From: Blepharisma japonicum
Lineage: Eukaryota > Ciliophora > Heterotrichea > Heterotrichida > Blepharismidae
Length of the DNA stretch: 64,000 bases
Direction: 5' to 3'
Assembly: GCA_949751835.1 (NCBI GenBank)
Contig: CATKHK010000085.1
Location: 1-64,000, forward strand
Part shown: positions 1 to 43,399 of the stretch, in pieces
Numbering within the stretch: position 1 is the stretch's first letter
How the letters are laid out: every line of letters starts with the position of its first letter
Notes under the pieces: model-generated
The model's database searches: none
What the model saw: the letters and a program-made list of their open reading frames with translations, nothing else
What the model was told of the DNA's origin: nothing
Made by a program: the position numbers and the translations under genes

Positions 1-65
1 TACTTAGACATGCATGGCTTAATCTTTGAGACAAGCATATGACTACTGGCAGGATCAACCAGATT
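1..65 (-). rRNA. 18S rRNA, 5' end only (cut by window edge)
   Basis: The reverse complement carries the universal eukaryotic small-subunit 5' terminus, CTGGTTGATCCTGCCAGTAG, followed by the conserved CATATGCTTGTCTC and CATGCATGTCTAAGTA stretches. Transcription runs leftwards out of the window, so only about 65 nt of a roughly 1.7-kb gene are present. The mature 5' end is placed at about 62-65. Confidence 0.97.
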
Positions 66-34435: not shown

Positions 34436-35293
<858 letters not shown>

Positions 35294-35596
35294 TTATAAT
35301 TAAAAAATTGAAATTAATTTCTTTGCTGAAGCATTTATTGATGGTAAACGACTGATAATCATATATGCAAACAGTTTGAATTTTTTGATTTTTATTTTTT
35401 ATTTGCACAATAAATAATCATTTATTTCATATTTTATTCAATTTTGTTGAAATAATTTATAATGTAAACTATATTTAATTTTCCATAAATAACTATAAAT
35501 TATTTTTACCCTTTTTGCATCTATATTTAGCTCGATTTTTTTCCCTTTCATCTTAAAACAAACCAATATTACTTCATATTATTAGGTATTATCAGG

Positions 35597-36101
35597 ATGA
35601 GTACAATTTGTCCCTGCTCAAATAACCTACTGGGTAATGGAAATTGTGAAGTGTATTGCAATGTTTTAGCTTGCAATTGAGATAACGGGGATTGTGATGA
35701 GTCCAAAAATCCTAAAGACATCACAATGATGCTTATTATCATTCTGGTGCCACTCTTTATAGTAATCTTTGTGTAAAAGTTAATGTAGGCTTTGTCTATG
35801 CATTGTAAAATGCCTTCTTAAAAGAAAAAGCAGTTCTAATAGACACTCAGTTTCAATAGTTCAAGAAAGTGATGAATTTATATCAAAGTCAAGCTTTGAA
35901 AAGTATATTTCCTTTTCAGGGTATACAGAAAATTTGTCGAATGACACTATTCTTATATGTCCTATCTGCTTAGCAGAACTACAAAATGATGAAAATATTA
36001 TAATAACAATATGCCTTCATAAATATCATGAAGAATGTATGAATCAATGGATAAAATCATCCAAAAAACATATATGCCCTTGCTGTATGAGAAAAATTTA
36101 A
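35597..36101 (+). CDS. LNR / transmembrane / RING-H2 protein A
   Basis: Exons 35597-35772 and 35789-36101 around a 16-nt intron GTAAAAGTTAATGTAG; 162 residues. Residues 5-33 form a Lin-12/Notch repeat: six Cys and the family's calcium-binding ending CNWDNGDCD, in which Trp is TGA. A membrane helix follows (MMLIIILVPLFIVIFVLCLC), then a RING-H2 finger CPICxxEL...C-x-H-x2-H-x2-C...CPCC. The predicted form is an E3 ubiquitin ligase with a small disulphide-rich outer domain. Unlike C, D and E it shows no signal peptide before the LNR; the helix may act as a type III signal anchor, or an upstream exon is missed. Confidence 0.85.
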
Positions 36102-36266
36102 GCTTAATAAAAATCTAATAAATAAAAGCTGCTTTGCTTCATATATAAAATAATAATGTTTGAAGTTATTTGATACTTTTAAGTTACTTATAAATTTAAT
36201 CTATATTATATTAAATGCATATTAAATGTTTTACTGAAAAATAACCTAACATCTTCATATTTAATT

Positions 36267-36461
36267 ATGCAATCTGGACAATCAGAAACTTGTCCTTGCT
36301 CAAACTATCAATTGGGTAACGGAACATGCAATGAAAGATGTAATACTTTAGAATGTGAATGGGATAATGGCGACTGCAATTTGTCTCGATCCTCCTCTTC
36401 AATTATTACTTGAGTAATAGTAATTTCAACAGTTTTACTTTTCCTTATAGCAACTATGTAA
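36267..36461 (+). CDS. LNR / transmembrane protein B, RING domain missing
   Basis: 64 residues: MQSGQSETCPCSNYQL, the LNR with six Cys and CEWDNGDC, then a membrane helix (ITWVIVISTVLLFLIATM) with TGA as Trp. It stops at the exon 1/intron boundary: the donor GTAAAATTCATTT is still there, matching the intron of B', but the sequence then changes and no acceptor or RING exon follows. It is therefore a 5' truncated-off paralogue, possibly still making a membrane-anchored LNR peptide, or a decaying copy. Confidence 0.6.
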
Positions 36462-36538
36462 AATTCATTTCCTCCCCTTATTGATAACGCGCCAATAAAT
36501 TGATTTTTCCCAAAAAAATTTTTTAAATAGCCTTATAA

Positions 36539-36703
36539 TCGGGTACTAAAGGAGGTAGTAGTGTGTCCGATCATAACTATCAGGTGAATCATTATTCCAA
36601 GCCAACAAATTCTCCCTTCAAATGGCGCAAAGCAGGTCAACCCCCAGGAGTCTTAGAAACTGCATTTACAATATGGCAGTCACTTTACTTATTCTTAATG
36701 TAA
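36539..36703 (+). other. orphan open stretch after truncated gene B
   Basis: A 54-codon stretch open between stops, with coding-like composition (segments NHYSKPTNSPFKWRKAG and LETAFTIWQSLYLF), unlike the AT-rich surroundings. It has no ATG except at its last sense codon. It sits exactly where the RING exon of gene B should be, so it came in with the rearrangement and is probably a fragment of another gene. I recognise no family. Confidence 0.35.
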
Positions 36704-36711
36704 TGTAACCT

Positions 36712-38180
36712 TAGAAGTGAAAATCATAATTAAAATGGATTTCAATTTTATAAGAAATTTCAATGATTTGGATTTGATATTATTTTAAAATTTTTATTGA
36801 TTATGGTAGAGAAATTATAATGATAAAATAAATGAAAAGTAAGATTTCTTTATATTATTTAAAAATTTATGTACAATATAAGAGCAGAAATTACAATTAA
36901 AAATTGAATTAATTTATTTGCTGGCGAATTTGTTAAATCTAAAGACTTGATATTATGAATTCAAATAATTTGAATATATTGATTTTATTTATTTTATTAT
37001 TTTTATGTCATAAGAAAATCATTATTTATTTCATCATTTTAATTTCAGTTCTGTGGAAATAATTTATAAATGATTTATATTTAATTTACCATAAATGACT
37101 ATAAATTATTTTTCCCTTTTGTCCAAAATATATAGCTAAATTTTTTTCGCTTCATCTTAAAATAAACCAATCCTAATTCATATTTCTAGATATTAATTAT
37201 AATGAGTACAGCTTGTCCCTGCTCAAACAACTTGTTAGGTAATGGAAATTGTGAAGTATACTGTGATATTTTAGCTTGCAATTGAGATAAAGGGGATTGC
37301 GATAAGTCCAAGAGTGATACAAACATAACAATGATGCTTATTATCATTCTGGTGCCACTATTTATAATTACTCTTGTGTAATTGTTAATGTAGGCTTTGT
37401 CTTTGCTTTGTAAAATACCTTCTAAAAAGAAAAAGCAGTTCTCATAGAGACTTAGCTTCAATAGCTCAAGAAAGTGATGAATTTATGTCAAAGCCAAGCT
37501 TTGAAAAATATGTTTCTTTTTCAGGATATACAGAAAATTTGTCGAGTGATAGCATTCTTATATGTCCTATCTGCTTAGCAGAATTACAAAAGGATGAAAA
37601 TGTTATAATAACAACATGCCTTCATAAATATCATGAAGAATGCATGAATCAATGGATAAAATCATCCAAAAAACATATATGCCCTTGCTGCATGAGAAAA
37701 ATTTAAGCTCAGAAAAAAATTATTTAATTTTAATCGAGCATATTTAACATACAATAATGCATTTCTCTTTTTAAATTTCACATTTAGATTAAGTATCCTT
37801 TATTAAAGAGTCTTAATAAAAATGTAATAAATAAAAGCTACTTCGTTTCATATATAAAATAATGATGTTTGAAGTTATTTGATACTTTTAAGTTGCTTAT
37901 AAATTTAATCTCTATTATATTAAATAAATATTAAAATGTTTTACTGAAAAATAACCTAACATCTTCATATTTAATTATGCAATCTGGATAATCAGAAACT
38001 TGTCCTTGCTCAAGCTATCAATTGGGTAACGGAACATGCAATGAAAGATGTAATACTTTAGAATGTGAATGGGATAATGGCGACTGCAATTCGTCTCAAT
38101 CCTCCTCTTCAATTATTACTTGAGTAATAGTAATTTCAACAGTTTTATTTTTCCTTATAGCAATTACGTAACATTCATTT
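36712..38180. repeat. segmental duplication, right copy
   Basis: Right copy of the 35110-36473 block: Rab2-type upstream flank (no Rab2 gene beside it), then genes A' and B'. The coding parts of A and A' are nearly identical, the flanks more diverged. The presence of a Rab2 flank without Rab2 gives the direction of copying: the left block is the source. Confidence 0.88.
37202..37706 (+). CDS. LNR / transmembrane / RING-H2 protein A'
   Basis: Exons 37202-37377 and 37394-37706 around a 16-nt intron GTAATTGTTAATGTAG; 162 residues, same exon lengths as gene A. LNR ends CNWDKGDCD (Trp is TGA); the helix is MMLIIILVPLFIITLVLCLC; the RING-H2 has CPICLAEL, CLHKYHEEC and CPCC. Differences from A are mostly conservative, concentrated in the juxtamembrane linker, so both copies look functional. 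Confidence 0.87.
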
Positions 38181-38470
38181 AGAGCTTTCATTTATTTAAT
38201 GAAGCGATATAAAAGACGATTTTATAGAGTTTATCCAAGAATCCTGGAAAACTATGGTTTTGTTGCAAAATGTGCAACAAAAGAATTAATATCGTTTTCA
38301 GTTCAAACTGAAGATGAAACCTGCAATGCCACTTGTGTAATTTGTTTAGAAGAACTCCAAAAAGGAGAAATTAAATTAATTACAAACTGCTCACATGAAT
38401 TTCATGCGAAGTGTATTGATCAGTGGCTTGAATGGTCAGTACATAAATGATGCCCTGCTGTAAGCAGGGA
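37977..38470 (+). pseudogene. LNR / transmembrane / RING-H2 gene B', damaged
   Basis: Paralogue of B with the RING part that B lacks: exon 1 to 38167, a 15-nt intron GTAACATTCATTTAG (38168-38182), then linker and RING (CVICLEEL, CSHEFHAKC). Two faults: codon 5 is TAA where B has CAA, and the last Cys pair of the RING (PCCKQGI before TAA) lies one base out of frame with the rest. Unless another start and a sequencing error explain these, it is a pseudogene. The longer in-frame reading would end later, near 38519, without the last Cys pair. Confidence 0.65.
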
Positions 38471-38776
38471 ATTTAATAATTGATCTTTATTCCTTTTTAG
38501 GAATTATAGCACTTCTTAAATTTTCATTTTGAATTTATACGACACTTAAAATGGCATTATAAAATTTGCGTTTTTAACTAATATCGATTCACCAAATATC
38601 ATTTTTATATATTTATGTCATTTTAAACTAAAATAGCATAATATATTTTTTATGCGTTATAAATTTTTAAAACTAATTTATCATAATTTCTAATCAAATA
38701 AAATTGTTTTATCAATCCAATCATTAGTAATTTTTTATAAATTTGCCCCAAATATTTTCAACTTTCAAGAAAATAA

Positions 38777-39358
38777 ATGGGACATAAATTAATTTTTCTC
38801 TTAGTCCTATTCCCCTATTTTTCAGCACAGCGAAATCATCCTAATTGTCCTTGTTCAGATGCATTATTAAATAACAAACACTGTAATTCAGAATGCAATA
38901 TACGGGCTTGCAATTGAGACTATGGCGACTGTAGCTCAAAAGACAGTTCAGAAATGTTAGAAGTTATTATAATTATCGCTATCATAGGTGGTCTATTAAT
39001 TTTTATGTAATTATTATTTAGATTTGGTGCATGTTTTATTACTTCAAGATTGCGATTATTTGAAAATTCGCATAGAGCAACTATAAATCCTGTTAATATA
39101 AACGACACAACTTTTACCCAGCAAAATCCTTCAAACGAAGCAGTTTTTGCAATTTTTTCAGAAAAAACGAAATATTTAGGACAGCCAATCTGCGCTATTT
39201 GTCTTATGGAGTTCCAAAGAGGAGATCCTATTAGAATCACAAAGTGCCTGCATCTTTTTCATAATGAGTGCATAGAACAATGAATGTTGGCAGCTCCAAA
39301 TCCTAAATGTCCTGATTGCAACAAAGAATGCTCACTTCAAAGCAGTTTTTATCAATAA
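38777..39358 (+). CDS. LNR / transmembrane / RING-H2 protein C
   Basis: Exons 38777-39006 and 39022-39358 around a 15-nt intron GTAATTATTATTTAG; 188 residues. A clear signal peptide (MGHKLIFLLVLFPYFSAQ), then LNR CPCSDALLNNKHC...CNWDYGDC (Trp is TGA), a membrane helix (LEVIIIIAIIGGLLIFM), a linker of about 60 residues, and RING-H2 CAICLMEF, CLHLFHNEC, then W (TGA) and CPDC. This is a type I membrane E3 layout like the PA-TM-RING family but with a Notch-type repeat outside. Confidence 0.9.
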
Positions 39359-39935
39359 AGAAAAAAGCAAAGAAAACAAATTTTGAATTTAAATTTAGTA
39401 TAATTATTAGGAGTATTTAATTAATTATATTAATTAATCAAATATACTGTCTAGAGTTATCTTTACTAAAATGTTTGGGAAAGCAGCCTTTTCTATTTCA
39501 TATAGGATTTAAATAGCATCTCTTGGATAGTAGGCCTGCTTAATTAGATTCAAACATATATAATAGCAATAGCAATTAATTTTGTAATTTTATATTAATC
39601 TTGCATAAATTCATTTCTCTGACCTTTTTTTATACCATCATTTTATTCTTATAGTTTCTAACTAAATGAGTTATGGAAAATTCAAATTGAAATGATTTCT
39701 TATCAAATTATTCATTTTAGACTTGTTTTCAAATACAAATATTTTGGAAAATTCTGGCATTTTAACACTTTTTTTGGTTAAATATTACTAAAGTCTTCTT
39801 AATAATTAAAAATAGAAAATTCTTTTGGAGGAGGCATTATCCCTCTTTTGGATTAATTAAAGAATTGCCTTATTAAATCATATCCCATCATTATAACAAT
39901 ATGTTATGCTTTTTTAAAATCCTTTAATAAATAAA
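39359..39935. other. AT-rich spacer between RING genes C and D
   Basis: About 580 bp, no open frame. Repeated AT-rich words but no clear match to the other spacers of the cluster. Confidence 0.5.
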
Positions 39936-40508
39936 ATGGCTAATTCTCTAATCATAATGCTGGCTTTACTGCCAATTTCACTTTCCCAATACTCATATTC
40001 CAACTGTCCTTGCTCGGCAGAACAATTGCAAAATAAAAAATGTGATCAAGAATGCAATATAAGTGAGTGTAATTGAGATAATGATGAGTGTTCAGCTCAT
40101 GAAGGCTTTGAATATGTTCAAATGATAGTGATATTAAGTGCTGCTATTGGGTTTATTGCAACATTGTAAATTTTATTTAGTTCATTTTTATGCTTTATTT
40201 CAGTAAGGCTAAACTTATTTAGCAATACAAGAAACTCAGGAGCGGCCACTTCTTCAGAAAATCATGTAACAAAGGAGAAGCTAACTGAAGAGGCTCCATC
40301 TACGATTTTTTCAGAAGATACAAAGTACTCTGGGGAGCCAGTTTGTACTATCTGTCTTACTGATTTCAAAAATGGTGACGTAGTTAGAATAACTAAGTGC
40401 ATGCATATTTTTCATTCAATATGCATAGAGGAATGGCTGCTTTCTACGAATCATCCTAAATGTCCTGATTGCAACAAAACTTATGTTTTTCATGAGTTTT
40501 TTCAATAA
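39936..40508 (+). CDS. LNR / transmembrane / RING-H2 protein D
   Basis: Exons 39936-40165 and 40181-40508 around a 15-nt intron GTAAATTTTATTTAG; 185 residues. Signal peptide MANSLIIMLALLPISLSQ; LNR CPCSAEQLQNKKC...CNWDNDEC (Trp is TGA); membrane helix VQMIVILSAAIGFIATL; RING-H2 CTICLTDF, CMHIFHSIC, CPDC; ends FHEFFQ. Exon 1 has exactly the length of that in gene C, and the last residues match gene E (NEFFQ). Confidence 0.9.
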
Positions 40509-41019
40509 ATTGATCAGTATAATAATTATAGCGTATAGTATTGAAAAGAATTGGATCAGTATAATTTTAATGATAATATTTTGAAATAAGCTGTCAAATA
40601 TTTTGAATTTTTCAATAAATAGTATTGATTCTAGTGTTTTAGCGACGCATAAATGAGAGTTTATACATCAAAAATAATTTATTCCATCAAGATGTTCATA
40701 TCAATTAAATTTCGTCCTTAAAAATATAAAAGTTCTTTATAGCTTATCCTTTTATAAGCCGCTTAAAATATTAGCATGAAAGTTAGATCACGATAAATTA
40801 ATACCCCTTTTGAAGTTGTAAAATTTTTACATTATAATTTTCAAGATGTCCAAAAATATGAAATTTTCTCCATCTTAAATAGCCCAGACAATTTTTTTTC
40901 AAAATTCCAATTACATTCTTGCTAATGATAAGCACTTGATATTCATTTATGAGTAAAAAAGCTTTTTAAAATTTAACACAGATATGCTTAAATAAATGTG
41001 GATCTGAGCTCAATATAAA
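40509..41019. other. AT-rich spacer between RING genes D and E
   Basis: About 510 bp without open frames or RNA-like islands. Confidence 0.5.
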
Positions 41020-41607
41020 ATGGTGTTAAATTCAATATTCTTATTTGTCTTACCCCACATATCTTTTCAGCAGCCAGTTTTATCTGGATGTCCCTGTAGT
41101 TATGAACAGCTTCACAATAAAAAGTGTGATGATGAATGTGACATAGACGCATGCGATTACGATAATGGAAGCTGCGATTCTTCAGGAACAGACTTCAATT
41201 ATCTTGACGTCATAATTATTTCGTGTAGCACAGTTGGAGTTATTACTATTTTGTAACATATATTTAGAGCTGTTTGCTGCTATTTGTCAACTAAAATAAA
41301 TTTTTGGGATTGAATCAACAATATAAGAAGACATATAATCCCAGACCGTGACGGAGATAACCACATAACAAAGCGGCAATTGCATCAAGAAGCTTCATTA
41401 TTTATATATACAGAAAATGCTCAGTTTATAGGGGAACCCACTTGTGCAATCTGCCTTATGGATTTTAAAATGAATGATAATGTAAGAATTACAAAATGTA
41501 AGCATATGTTTCATATGGATTGCATAGAGCAGTGACTAGTTAAAGCTAGACGTCCTAAGTGTCCTGATTGCAATAAAGAGTACATTTCTAATGAGTTTTT
41601 TCAATAA
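41020..41607 (+). CDS. LNR / transmembrane / RING-H2 protein E
   Basis: Exons 41020-41252 and 41268-41607 around a 15-nt intron GTAACATATATTTAG; 190 residues. Signal peptide MVLNSIFLFVLPHISFQQ; LNR CPCSYEQLHNKKC...CDYDNGSC, where the usual Trp is Tyr; membrane helix VIIISCSTVGVITIL; RING-H2 CAICLMDF, CKHMFHMDC, W (TGA), CPDC; ends NEFFQ. Last member of the cluster. Confidence 0.9.
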
Positions 41608-42271: not shown

Positions 42272-43399
42272 TTACATATAGCGTTGAGAAAAATTATTTG
42301 GATTATTCAAAGTTCTTTCATAATCAATCCTCTTCCAGTTGATTATCTTGAACGTAATTAATGGAATGACAAAACTAATGACAAATCCACTAATAAAACG
42401 GATTATGCTAAAGCATATAAAGGTTGTAAGGAAGTCTCCATATGTTTTTGCAAGATATTCTAAGCATTGATCTATTATCAAAGCTGGGATAAAAAACAAT
42501 GTCCCGTAAATGAAGGTCTTTCATTTATAGGAGGCTGGAATTTGAATTAAAAAATGTTTCCCTATCCAAAATCCAGCTAAAAATAATATAAAAGTAGTCT
42601 CTCTGCAGGCTTCTCTCATAGAGTCAGTTTTTGTCAAATTTCCACTGCAATCGGATGAAAAGTTATTGCTTCAATCTTTGTCCCAATCAGGATCTCGATA
42701 TAAATATAATAATATTCCCCACATCCATAAAAGCCCAATCACAAAATTTGCTATCAAAATTAATTTTTTATCACCAAAACTTCTTCCTATATATTCTCGA
42801 ATTTTGTCATTCAGTAGCAAGAATGCAATGCAAAATCCCATGATATTTCCATGAATCACTTGAAAATAGAAATGAACCCCTACATAAATTCTATCAAAAT
42901 CCACTAAGATTATAATAATAGCTCCAATTGAAACAGCAATTGCTTTTTCTTTGTTATTTTTCACAAATTCTCCAGCAAAATACCCTACAACGGCTGCAAC
43001 CATAAGTGCATGCCCTGAAGGAGCTCCCCAGCCTCTTCCGCAAACAATTCCTTCTACATCAGAGTTTCACCAAAAAGGCCTTGGATGTGAATAATGCATT
43101 TTCATGGTGTCGCTCATCCATAAAGCGAGTACTTCAGAAATAATTGCAAAAGTGCCTATTTTATAGTCAATAGATGTATAACAAAACAACCCAGAAATAA
43201 GTAAAATATACATAGAGTAAGTAGAAATAATTTTAAAAATTTCGTTGACACTGCTTCTATTATCAGATTGGATCCAAGTAGTTAAATCAGCGCCAGAGTC
43301 TTGCAATTTTTCTGTGAGTGTAGCTTCTATAATGCAACAAATAAGTGCCAGTACACATAGGACGGCTGGCAAGATATTTTGTAATATCATATATTTCAT
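42272..43399 (-). CDS. PAP2-superfamily membrane phosphatase, glucose-6-phosphatase type
   Basis: 375 residues in one frame with TGA-Trp codons joining three stretches. Eight or nine membrane helices. The three phosphatase motifs are present: K-x6-RP as KMHYSHPRPFW, the PSGH motif in WGAPSGHALM, and DRIYVGVHFYFQVIHG for motif 3. The HF..QV form of motif 3, as in glucose-6-phosphatase (HFPHQV), rather than H...D of lipid phosphatases, favours the G6Pase branch; the usual Ser before Arg is Asp here. It should act at the ER lumen on a sugar phosphate; the substrate is inference. Confidence 0.87.

Follow-up and report, generated by a model that had tools for sequence, protein, structure and literature searches.

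A tandem cluster of Blepharisma japonicum genes joining a Notch-type repeat to a transmembrane RING-H2 domain

Introduction

Plant RMR proteins, as described in the available part of PMC12552968, are type I proteins with a single transmembrane (TM) helix in which a luminal module is followed by a linker and a RING-H2 domain, and their RING activity, which hinges on an E2-contact Ile, is required for the receptor to travel beyond the Golgi. According to the same portion of that paper, the RMR1 substitution I234Y greatly lowered E3 activity and led to Golgi retention. Here we describe genes of the ciliate Blepharisma japonicum whose proteins resemble RMRs in this layout, in the order of their RING-H2 ligands and in the E2-contact Ile, and differ from them in that the luminal module is a Lin-12/Notch repeat (LNR) and not a PA domain, and in that the last ligand spacing is C-x12-C in three of the proteins (C, D and E) as opposed to C-x11-C. 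The genes lie at 35597-41607 of a stretch that we call the window, positions 1-64000 of contig C85 (CATKHK010000085.1, assembly GCA_949751835.1), and this interval runs exactly from the ATG of the first gene, A, to the stop of the last, E. The assembly searched comprises 45.2 Mb in 224 contigs.

The animal PA-TM-RING ligases (Goliath, GRAIL, RNF13, RNF167) and ZNRF3/RNF43 are likewise similar to the window proteins in topology and RING, and again differ in their ectodomain, which in the window is an LNR instead of PA. One member of that group, RNF122, has neither a PA domain nor a signal peptide, similar to window genes A and A' (available part of PMC4021871), and Notch is absent from the main text of this review of human TM-RING proteins (PMC4021871). 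From the other side, the LNR itself is shared with Notch, GNPTAB and PAPP-A, whereas the first two Cys of the window repeats are spaced C-x-C and no EGF or ANK match was found in the six window proteins scanned with Pfam. The window proteins are thus not Notch receptors, which combine EGF repeats, three LNRs and ANK, as each has a single LNR.

Results

Five apparently intact genes encode an LNR, a membrane helix and a RING-H2 domain

A first-pass annotation of this DNA had read seven neighboring loci (A, B, A', B', C, D and E) as one LNR-TM-RING-H2 design. We find that this design holds for A, A', C, D and E; B has no RING and B' carries a stop and a damaged RING, which rules out seven intact loci and leaves five. 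The RING-H2 domain itself was read correctly, as Pfam zf-RING_2 (cut-off 27.3 bits) is passed in 5/5 RING-bearing window proteins (39.6-46.9 bits, E 6e-10 to 3e-12), each of which has the C3H2C3 arrangement, complete in its eight ligands, together with the E2-contact Ile (C-x-I-C). Across 28 proteins (the five of the window, the relatives of their clade and a further locus, L008) this position is Ile in 24, Val in 3 and Leu in 1.

The Pfam scan of six window proteins (A, A', B, C, D and E) gives one LNR per protein. The significance of the LNR profile, which had been set beforehand as the refuting test, was found in four of them (Pfam Notch PF00066, cut-off 21.2 bits: A 25.0, B 32.2, C 25.9, D 27.5 bits) and not in A' (19.3 bits) or E (14.7 bits), in both of which all six Cys can still be aligned. 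Six Cys with a C-x3-C-x3/4-C-x-[WYF]-D core occur in A, A', C, D and E, and in B by alignment, and the ending CxxxxCxWDxGDC ascribed to the whole set is present in A, A', B, B' and C, with D (WDNDEC) and E (YDNGSC) departing from it.

One strong internal hydrophobic helix is found in each of A, A', C, D and E. Judged by hydropathy and charge, K/R residues are commoner after than before the helix in 26/27 genes of the clade described below, all five window genes included, and N-glycosylation sequons in these 27 genes number 82 in 4079 residues outside vs 38 in 3329 residues inside. The predicted arrangement, with a single TM helix, the N-terminus out and the RING in the cytosol, is that of PA-TM-RING and RMR proteins. 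By hydropathy the N-terminus is hydrophobic and signal-peptide-like in C, D and E, and no such stretch is seen in A and A', where the helix itself would therefore need to serve as a reverse signal anchor.

The window genes can be read only with TGA as Trp and with one 15- or 16-nt intron, lying within the membrane helix, removed, the introns at these loci being placed from the reading frames; both traits are reported for Blepharisma stoltei in the available part of PMC9942806. Among 84 gene models at the fetched loci, built by a script that favors the longest open reading frame (ORF) and penalizes each 15/16-nt intron, the stop codon is TAA in 68 and TAG in 16, and in-frame TGA (231) and TGG (225) are used about equally. 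The features of the cluster are as follows.

35597..36101, + strand: gene A, LNR-TM-RING-H2, 162 residues, no signal peptide seen
35609..35695, + strand: LNR of A, residues 5-33, Pfam Notch 25.0 bits and six-Cys pattern
35773-35788, + strand: intron of A, 16 nt, phase 2, within the TM helix
35958..36086, + strand: RING-H2 of A, residues 116-158, Pfam zf-RING_2 39.6 bits
36267..36461, + strand: B, LNR and TM only, 64 residues, no RING, Pfam Notch 32.2 bits
37202..37706, + strand: gene A', LNR-TM-RING-H2, 162 residues, protein 83% identical to A
37214-37300, + strand: LNR of A', Pfam Notch 19.3 bits, below cut-off
37378-37393, + strand: intron of A', 16 nt, phase 2
37563-37691, + strand: RING of A', Pfam zf-RING_2 42.0 bits
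37977..~38470, + strand: B', damaged LNR-TM-RING copy, TAA at codon 5 (37989-37991), intron 38168-38182
38777..39358, + strand: gene C, signal-peptide-like N-terminus, LNR, TM, RING-H2, 188 residues
38846..38932, + strand: LNR of C, residues 24-52, Pfam Notch 25.9 bits
39007-39021, + strand: intron of C, 15 nt, phase 2
39191..39319, + strand: RING-H2 of C, residues 134-176, Pfam zf-RING_2 43.4 bits
39936..40508, + strand: gene D, signal-peptide-like N-terminus, LNR, TM, RING-H2, 185 residues, intron 40166-40180
40005-40091, + strand: LNR of D, Pfam Notch 27.5 bits
40344-40472, + strand: RING of D, Pfam zf-RING_2 44.1 bits
41020..41607, + strand: gene E, signal-peptide-like N-terminus, variant LNR, TM, RING-H2, 190 residues, intron 41253-41267
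41089-41175, + strand: LNR of E, Pfam Notch 14.7 bits, below cut-off
41443-41571, + strand: RING of E, Pfam zf-RING_2 46.9 bits
35107..38180, + strand: duplicated A-B / A'-B' stretch, two aligned blocks

A profile of the family compared with solved structures matches ZNRF3 (9e-17, from TM to RING), Arkadia (4e-15), RNF13 (4.6e-15) and 7bvw (AT5G66160, which we take to be RMR1; 6.6e-15), so that the parallel with PA-TM-RING ligases drawn at first reading was apt. The LNR part of the profile matches GlcNAc-1-phosphotransferase (1.6e-8) and Notch1 (1.5e-6), and the LNR region of the relative L010 taken alone matches Notch1 (4.8e-9) and GNPTAB (9.4e-9).

The LNR and the RING are conserved and the middle has drifted

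Identity between C and D is 0.59 in the LNR and 0.60 in the RING, falling to 0.35 in the linker and 0.29 in the helix, and between D and E the corresponding values are 0.66, 0.65, 0.30 and 0.24. Since LNR and RING are equally alike while linker and helix have drifted, both ends appear to be kept and the middle to be freer. The pair A vs A' has dS 0.31 and dN 0.078 (dN/dS 0.25); divided into parts, one set of borders gives, on few sites, a dN/dS of 0.16 in LNR plus stalk, 0.15 in the RING and 0.70 in the linker, and with other borders the linker value is about 0.4 (dN 0.09, dS 0.24, again few sites). The divergence of the linkers proposed earlier is therefore borne out, in that they drift faster than LNR and RING. 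These figures support purifying selection, on average, on the LNR-TM-RING-H2 genes as judged from their sequences, and pairwise averages among the window genes give no sign of positive selection. Within the A/A' LNR, identity is 90% with a proportion of nonsynonymous differences (pN) of 0.04 and of synonymous differences (pS) of 0.55. Synonymous differences between A and A' are far more frequent in the LNR (pS 0.55) than in the RING (pS 0.13; few sites), and conversion or exchange of one A/A' exon is possible in view of this contrast.

The cluster belongs to a clade spread over the genome

Searching the genome with C gave full-length relatives on many contigs. The tandem family noticed at first is real as a cluster and at the same time a small part of a genome-wide family with a clade of 27 genes, so a family confined to the tandem is ruled out. 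At least seven loci elsewhere have the same layout with a six-Cys LNR, namely L001 (C128), L002 (C109), L003 (C132), L007 (C39), L010 (C24), L011 (C4) and L013 (C6), which makes at least 12 single-LNR TM-RING genes including the five of the window. Pfam Notch was above cut-off in 6/8 further proteins scanned (L002, L003, L008, L010 and two proteins from C5), the remaining two being L007 and the non-family protein L017. In L004, L005, L006 and L009 helix and RING are kept with a decayed LNR, and L019 and L006_1955 are short forms lacking an ectodomain. The counts of relatives are lower bounds, as the search with C scored 150/215 candidates. Genes that extended beyond the fetched sequence were truncated or missed, L015 and the N-terminus of L012_6036 among them, and L079 and L080 yielded no gene model. 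No relative of C exon 1 was found on viral contigs. One locus, L014 (C96:111500-113900), is an apparent broken copy of L011 (C4), with frame changes and one RING Cys lost.

In a TM-to-RING tree, built with the ectodomain excluded and with six hand-picked other TM-RINGs plus L008 as outgroup, the 27 genes form one clade (99/97). Here C, D and E group with L001 of C128 (100/99), L001 being the sister of E; A and A' stand on their own long branch; the VSR-bearing genes group with C62 (84/91); and L009, with its decayed LNR, is the sister of L003, whose LNR is intact (100/100). Two rows (L026_523, L021_8492) had been dropped from 84 RING rows, and L022_6380 also from the TM-to-RING tree. When 28 rows were held together in the resulting 82-row RING tree the likelihood was better by 6.8 (p-AU 0.71), and the free tree grouped 23 rows at 78.

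A phase-2 intron in the last helix occurs in 24/30 rows assigned to the family (among them L008, L021_8492 and L022_6380) vs 0/38 other TM-RINGs, a count that is partly circular because assignment used RING type and intron together. Among the clade members 25/27 have the helix intron or a candidate for it (L003 and L006_1955 have an in-frame GT..AG 15-mer at this place), with L024 and L032 lacking it, and the intron or an in-frame candidate is present in 12/12 single-LNR genes, which were picked by their LNR. The LNR is degenerate in 4/27 clade genes and absent in 6/27, with the RING kept, two C22 genes being coded as LNR-bearing in these counts and in the tree despite the lack of Pfam support in the one scanned. 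This distribution fits an LNR that would have been present early in the family and then repeatedly lost, on a tree whose backbone is weakly supported.

L008 (C1:687800-690300, 1005-1808) is a two-LNR TM-RING. It was rejected as a family member, as it falls on the outgroup side of the TM-to-RING tree (99/97) and has no helix intron; holding it inside the family is nevertheless not rejected (p-AU 0.38). Both of its LNRs (2/2) have C-x3-C, a spacing also found in 16/22 repeats of four LNR-array proteins, and C-x-C is found in 18/20 repeats of the other TM-RINGs and also in 15/15 of the LNR-only protein L016. From these features L008 may be a second, independent LNR-RING fusion.

Several relatives carry a VSR-type luminal part

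Relatives on C5, C22 and C62 carry a luminal part similar to that of plant VSRs (for C22 by profile only), unlike the window proteins, in which no VSR_TRX or PA luminal domain of the VSR type was found (Pfam, n=6). They differ from plant VSRs in adding a RING and, on C5, also LNRs. At L012 (C5) three tandem genes encode a long luminal part followed by LNRs, a helix and a RING. RING-less ciliate VSRs match the C5 luminal part (E 8e-21, 27%), and in hhalign the VSR-like part of five C5/C22 genes matches four such VSRs over 352 columns (E 7.7e-25), one of which, L028, matches plant VSR1 at 1.4e-50 and passes the cut-offs for both PA and VSR_TRX. One C5 protein is above all three relevant cut-offs (VSR_TRX 42.5, Notch 24.5 and zf-RING_2 39.2 bits), and on C62 VSR_TRX (51.6 bits) and RING (44.6 bits) lie in one frame. 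At C22 six VSR-like stretches stand beside six RING stretches, and three full models contain both parts. On this evidence the link to PA-type receptors through the VSR-LNR-TM-RING proteins of C5 looks like descent and not only analogy. VSRs without a RING also occur in this ciliate; four were modeled (L025-L028), and VSR_TRX matches lie at 13 places in the genome, eight of them above 100 bits.

Duplication within the cluster, its neighbors and other LNR and TM-RING genes

The duplicated stretch consists of a first block (35107-36113 vs 36706-37718, 83% identity) and a second (36103-36470 vs 37812-38180, 369 bp, 95% identity), and the contrast between 95% and 83% would suggest gene conversion or recent copying of B. 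B parts from B' at 36470, inside the intron, and the B' frame runs off at the last RING zinc-ligand pair. In the genome search 36455-36720, after B, matches only itself and is single-copy, so no second copy was found from which this stretch might have come. Upstream of the cluster, on the minus strand at 34500-35090, lies a Rab-like GTPase ORF, and downstream, at 42671-43003 (minus), an ORF for a membrane protein that is PAP2-like by eye; both are readings of the ORF list. The contig start lies within the first 65 nt of a small-subunit ribosomal RNA gene (window 1-65, minus; Rfam RF01960, 74.5 bits).

The genome is rich in LNRs, with at least 140 matches at E<=0.001 among the 150 candidates scored out of 501, LNR-rich contigs being C131, C60, C9, C11, C57, C40, C150 and C137. 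L016 (C41) has 948 residues, a signal-like start and 15 LNRs; L075-L078 have 5-6 LNRs by pattern and then a long non-LNR part; and L015 (C1:403500-405900, about 938-1500) has a signal-like start, three LNRs and a hydrophobic stretch in one open frame, with no RING within the translated part. Another TM-RING set of 11 models (433-464 residues), in tandem on C4 and C42 (L017, L018, L057, L060, L061, L062, L064), has its intron at residue 229-243 and not in the helix; L017, the one scanned, shows a weak EGF-like match and is an EGF-like TM-RING outside the LNR-TM-RING family.

Discussion

Taken together, the domain content, the signs of topology, the conserved sequence, the common clade and intron place, and the VSR homology of relatives lead us to think it somewhat probable that these genes encode membrane RING-H2 E3 ligases that act similarly to the RMR/PA-TM-RING sorting ligases, with the LNR replacing PA; the E3 activity, partner binding, compartment and sorting role are what we infer. 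Such single-pass ligases would be seated in the endomembrane system or at the cell surface, where the LNR, in the lumen or outside, would bind a protein partner, and the cytosolic RING would load an E2 and ubiquitinate either the ligase itself or a membrane partner, a modification that might steer the complex through Golgi-endosome-vacuole traffic. In described proteins, the Notch repeats of GlcNAc-1-phosphotransferase help to recognize lysosomal hydrolases (available part of PMC11418123), and loss of Ca2+ weakens partner binding by the LNRs of PAPP-A (available part of PMC9579167). Considering that the clade includes members whose luminal part is of the VSR type, some with LNRs and some not, a shared TM-RING chassis would repeatedly have had its outer part swapped, shortened or lost. 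If B is translated, its product would be an LNR-helix stub lacking the ligase. A more elaborate version, which we put forward tentatively as a possibility that we ourselves doubt, is that cargo-sorting ligases arose by ectodomain exchange on this one chassis, with the phase-2 helix intron as the joint and VSR, VSR plus LNR, LNR or nothing as the outer part. The VSR-LNR-RING proteins would then merge plant VSR and RMR, and the window genes would be stripped-down forms in which the LNR alone selects cargo or a partner for ubiquitin routing.

A number of our observations weigh against ligases of the RMR/PA-TM-RING sorting type. No PA match was obtained at E<=1 in A, A', B, C, D or E (Pfam), and because PA is absent the window proteins are not PA-TM-RING proteins by definition. 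The sorting motif [DE]xxxL[LIM] occurs in 4/27 cytosolic parts of the clade and in none of the window, and YxxPhi-like motifs, present in 14/27 clade linkers, are frequent by chance. The AlphaFold model of C (9-row alignment) has a mean pLDDT of 51 with 29 residues above 70, mostly in the TM helix, and its LNR region (block means 46-57 over residues 21-60) is too poorly modeled to show three disulfides or a bound Ca2+. The tie to VSRs is uneven: VSR_TRX passes in 2/3 C5 genes (42.5, 38.7 bits) and not in the remaining one, no C22 gene matches it, L023 included, and the C5/C22 luminal profile reaches only E 0.015 against plant VSR1 directly. In addition, the pair of C5 proteins scanned reach 18.1 and 16.8 bits for PA, short of its cut-off of 23.9 bits, and among the VSR-type relatives with a RING that were scanned none passes it. 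The LNR-like Cys block of C22 had no Pfam support in the one protein scanned, and the LNR of L007 has no Pfam Notch match. The free search of the 82 RING rows left A, A', L007, L011, L008 and L022_6380 outside the group. Moreover, the 12 single-LNR TM-RINGs are rejected as a clade of their own (p-AU 0.011), as are the LNR, decayed-LNR and VSR genes as a clade without the no-LNR genes (p-AU 0.0016), and the tree requires 8 changes in the presence of the LNR.

Among solved structures the family profile scores best against ZNRF3, with a match across TM and RING, and together with the small ectodomain, conserved LNR, drifting linker and tandem copies this could point to plasma-membrane receptor ligases, in which the LNR would bind an extracellular ligand or co-receptor and the RING would clear surface receptors, tandem copies tuning responses to the environment or to mates. 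However, the VSR-type luminal domains in the clade point to Golgi-endosome traffic and the pairwise averages lack a sign of positive selection, and we regard this alternative as unlikely. If instead the LNR mattered through calcium, its occupancy in the lumen or outside would switch the RING, as the coupling of calcium to ubiquitination raised in the first-pass annotation implies; with the presence of the LNR alone as its basis, such coupling is conceivable. The LNRs of Notch and PAPP-A hold Ca2+, as far as the available parts of the sources go, and the four positions that we take to be the Ca ligands hold acidic or amide residues in A, A', C and D (Glu last in D). Yet the last of these is Ser in E and in its C128 relative L001, RINGs persist where the LNR is degenerate (4/27) or absent (6/27), and we know of no route from Ca2+ to the RING, so that we hold a calcium sensor to be quite improbable.

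Those same decayed repeats could mean that the LNR is a dispensable remnant, with only the membrane-anchored RING mattering and the ectodomain decaying freely, and indeed L004, L005, L006 and L009 retain intact RINGs next to a degenerate LNR, L003, the sister of L009, has an intact LNR, and L019 and L006_1955 are short forms without an ectodomain. Against free decay stand the 90% identity of the A and A' LNRs at pS 0.55 and pN 0.04, and the fact that in C/D and D/E the LNRs are as similar as the RINGs when linker and TM are at 0.24-0.35; we give this explanation a small probability.

The RMR/PA-TM-RING-like interpretation makes the window proteins a variant of a described ligase type, and their architecture may already be catalogued in subscription papers, InterPro or ciliate proteomes. 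Judged by title or abstract opening, none of the open-licence papers listed by our searches describes an LNR-RING protein, and a single open-licence paper contains both LNR and RING-H2 as whole words, its available part treating Notch and Deltex as separate proteins. In a described copepod expansion of LNRs, the partner domains are proteases, lectins and others, and a search for RING gave no occurrence in the available part of that paper (PMC8301441). The direct joining of a Notch-type repeat to a ubiquitin ligase, here in a unicellular organism, would add a new type of input to those of transmembrane RING ligases, and if L008 is a second LNR-RING fusion this would suggest that the pairing itself is useful. 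The VSR-LNR-TM-RING relatives would unite in one protein the receptor and ligase roles that are divided between proteins in plants, and offer an entry to the question of how, in RMR-type ligases, binding in the lumen is coupled to ubiquitination in the cytosol.

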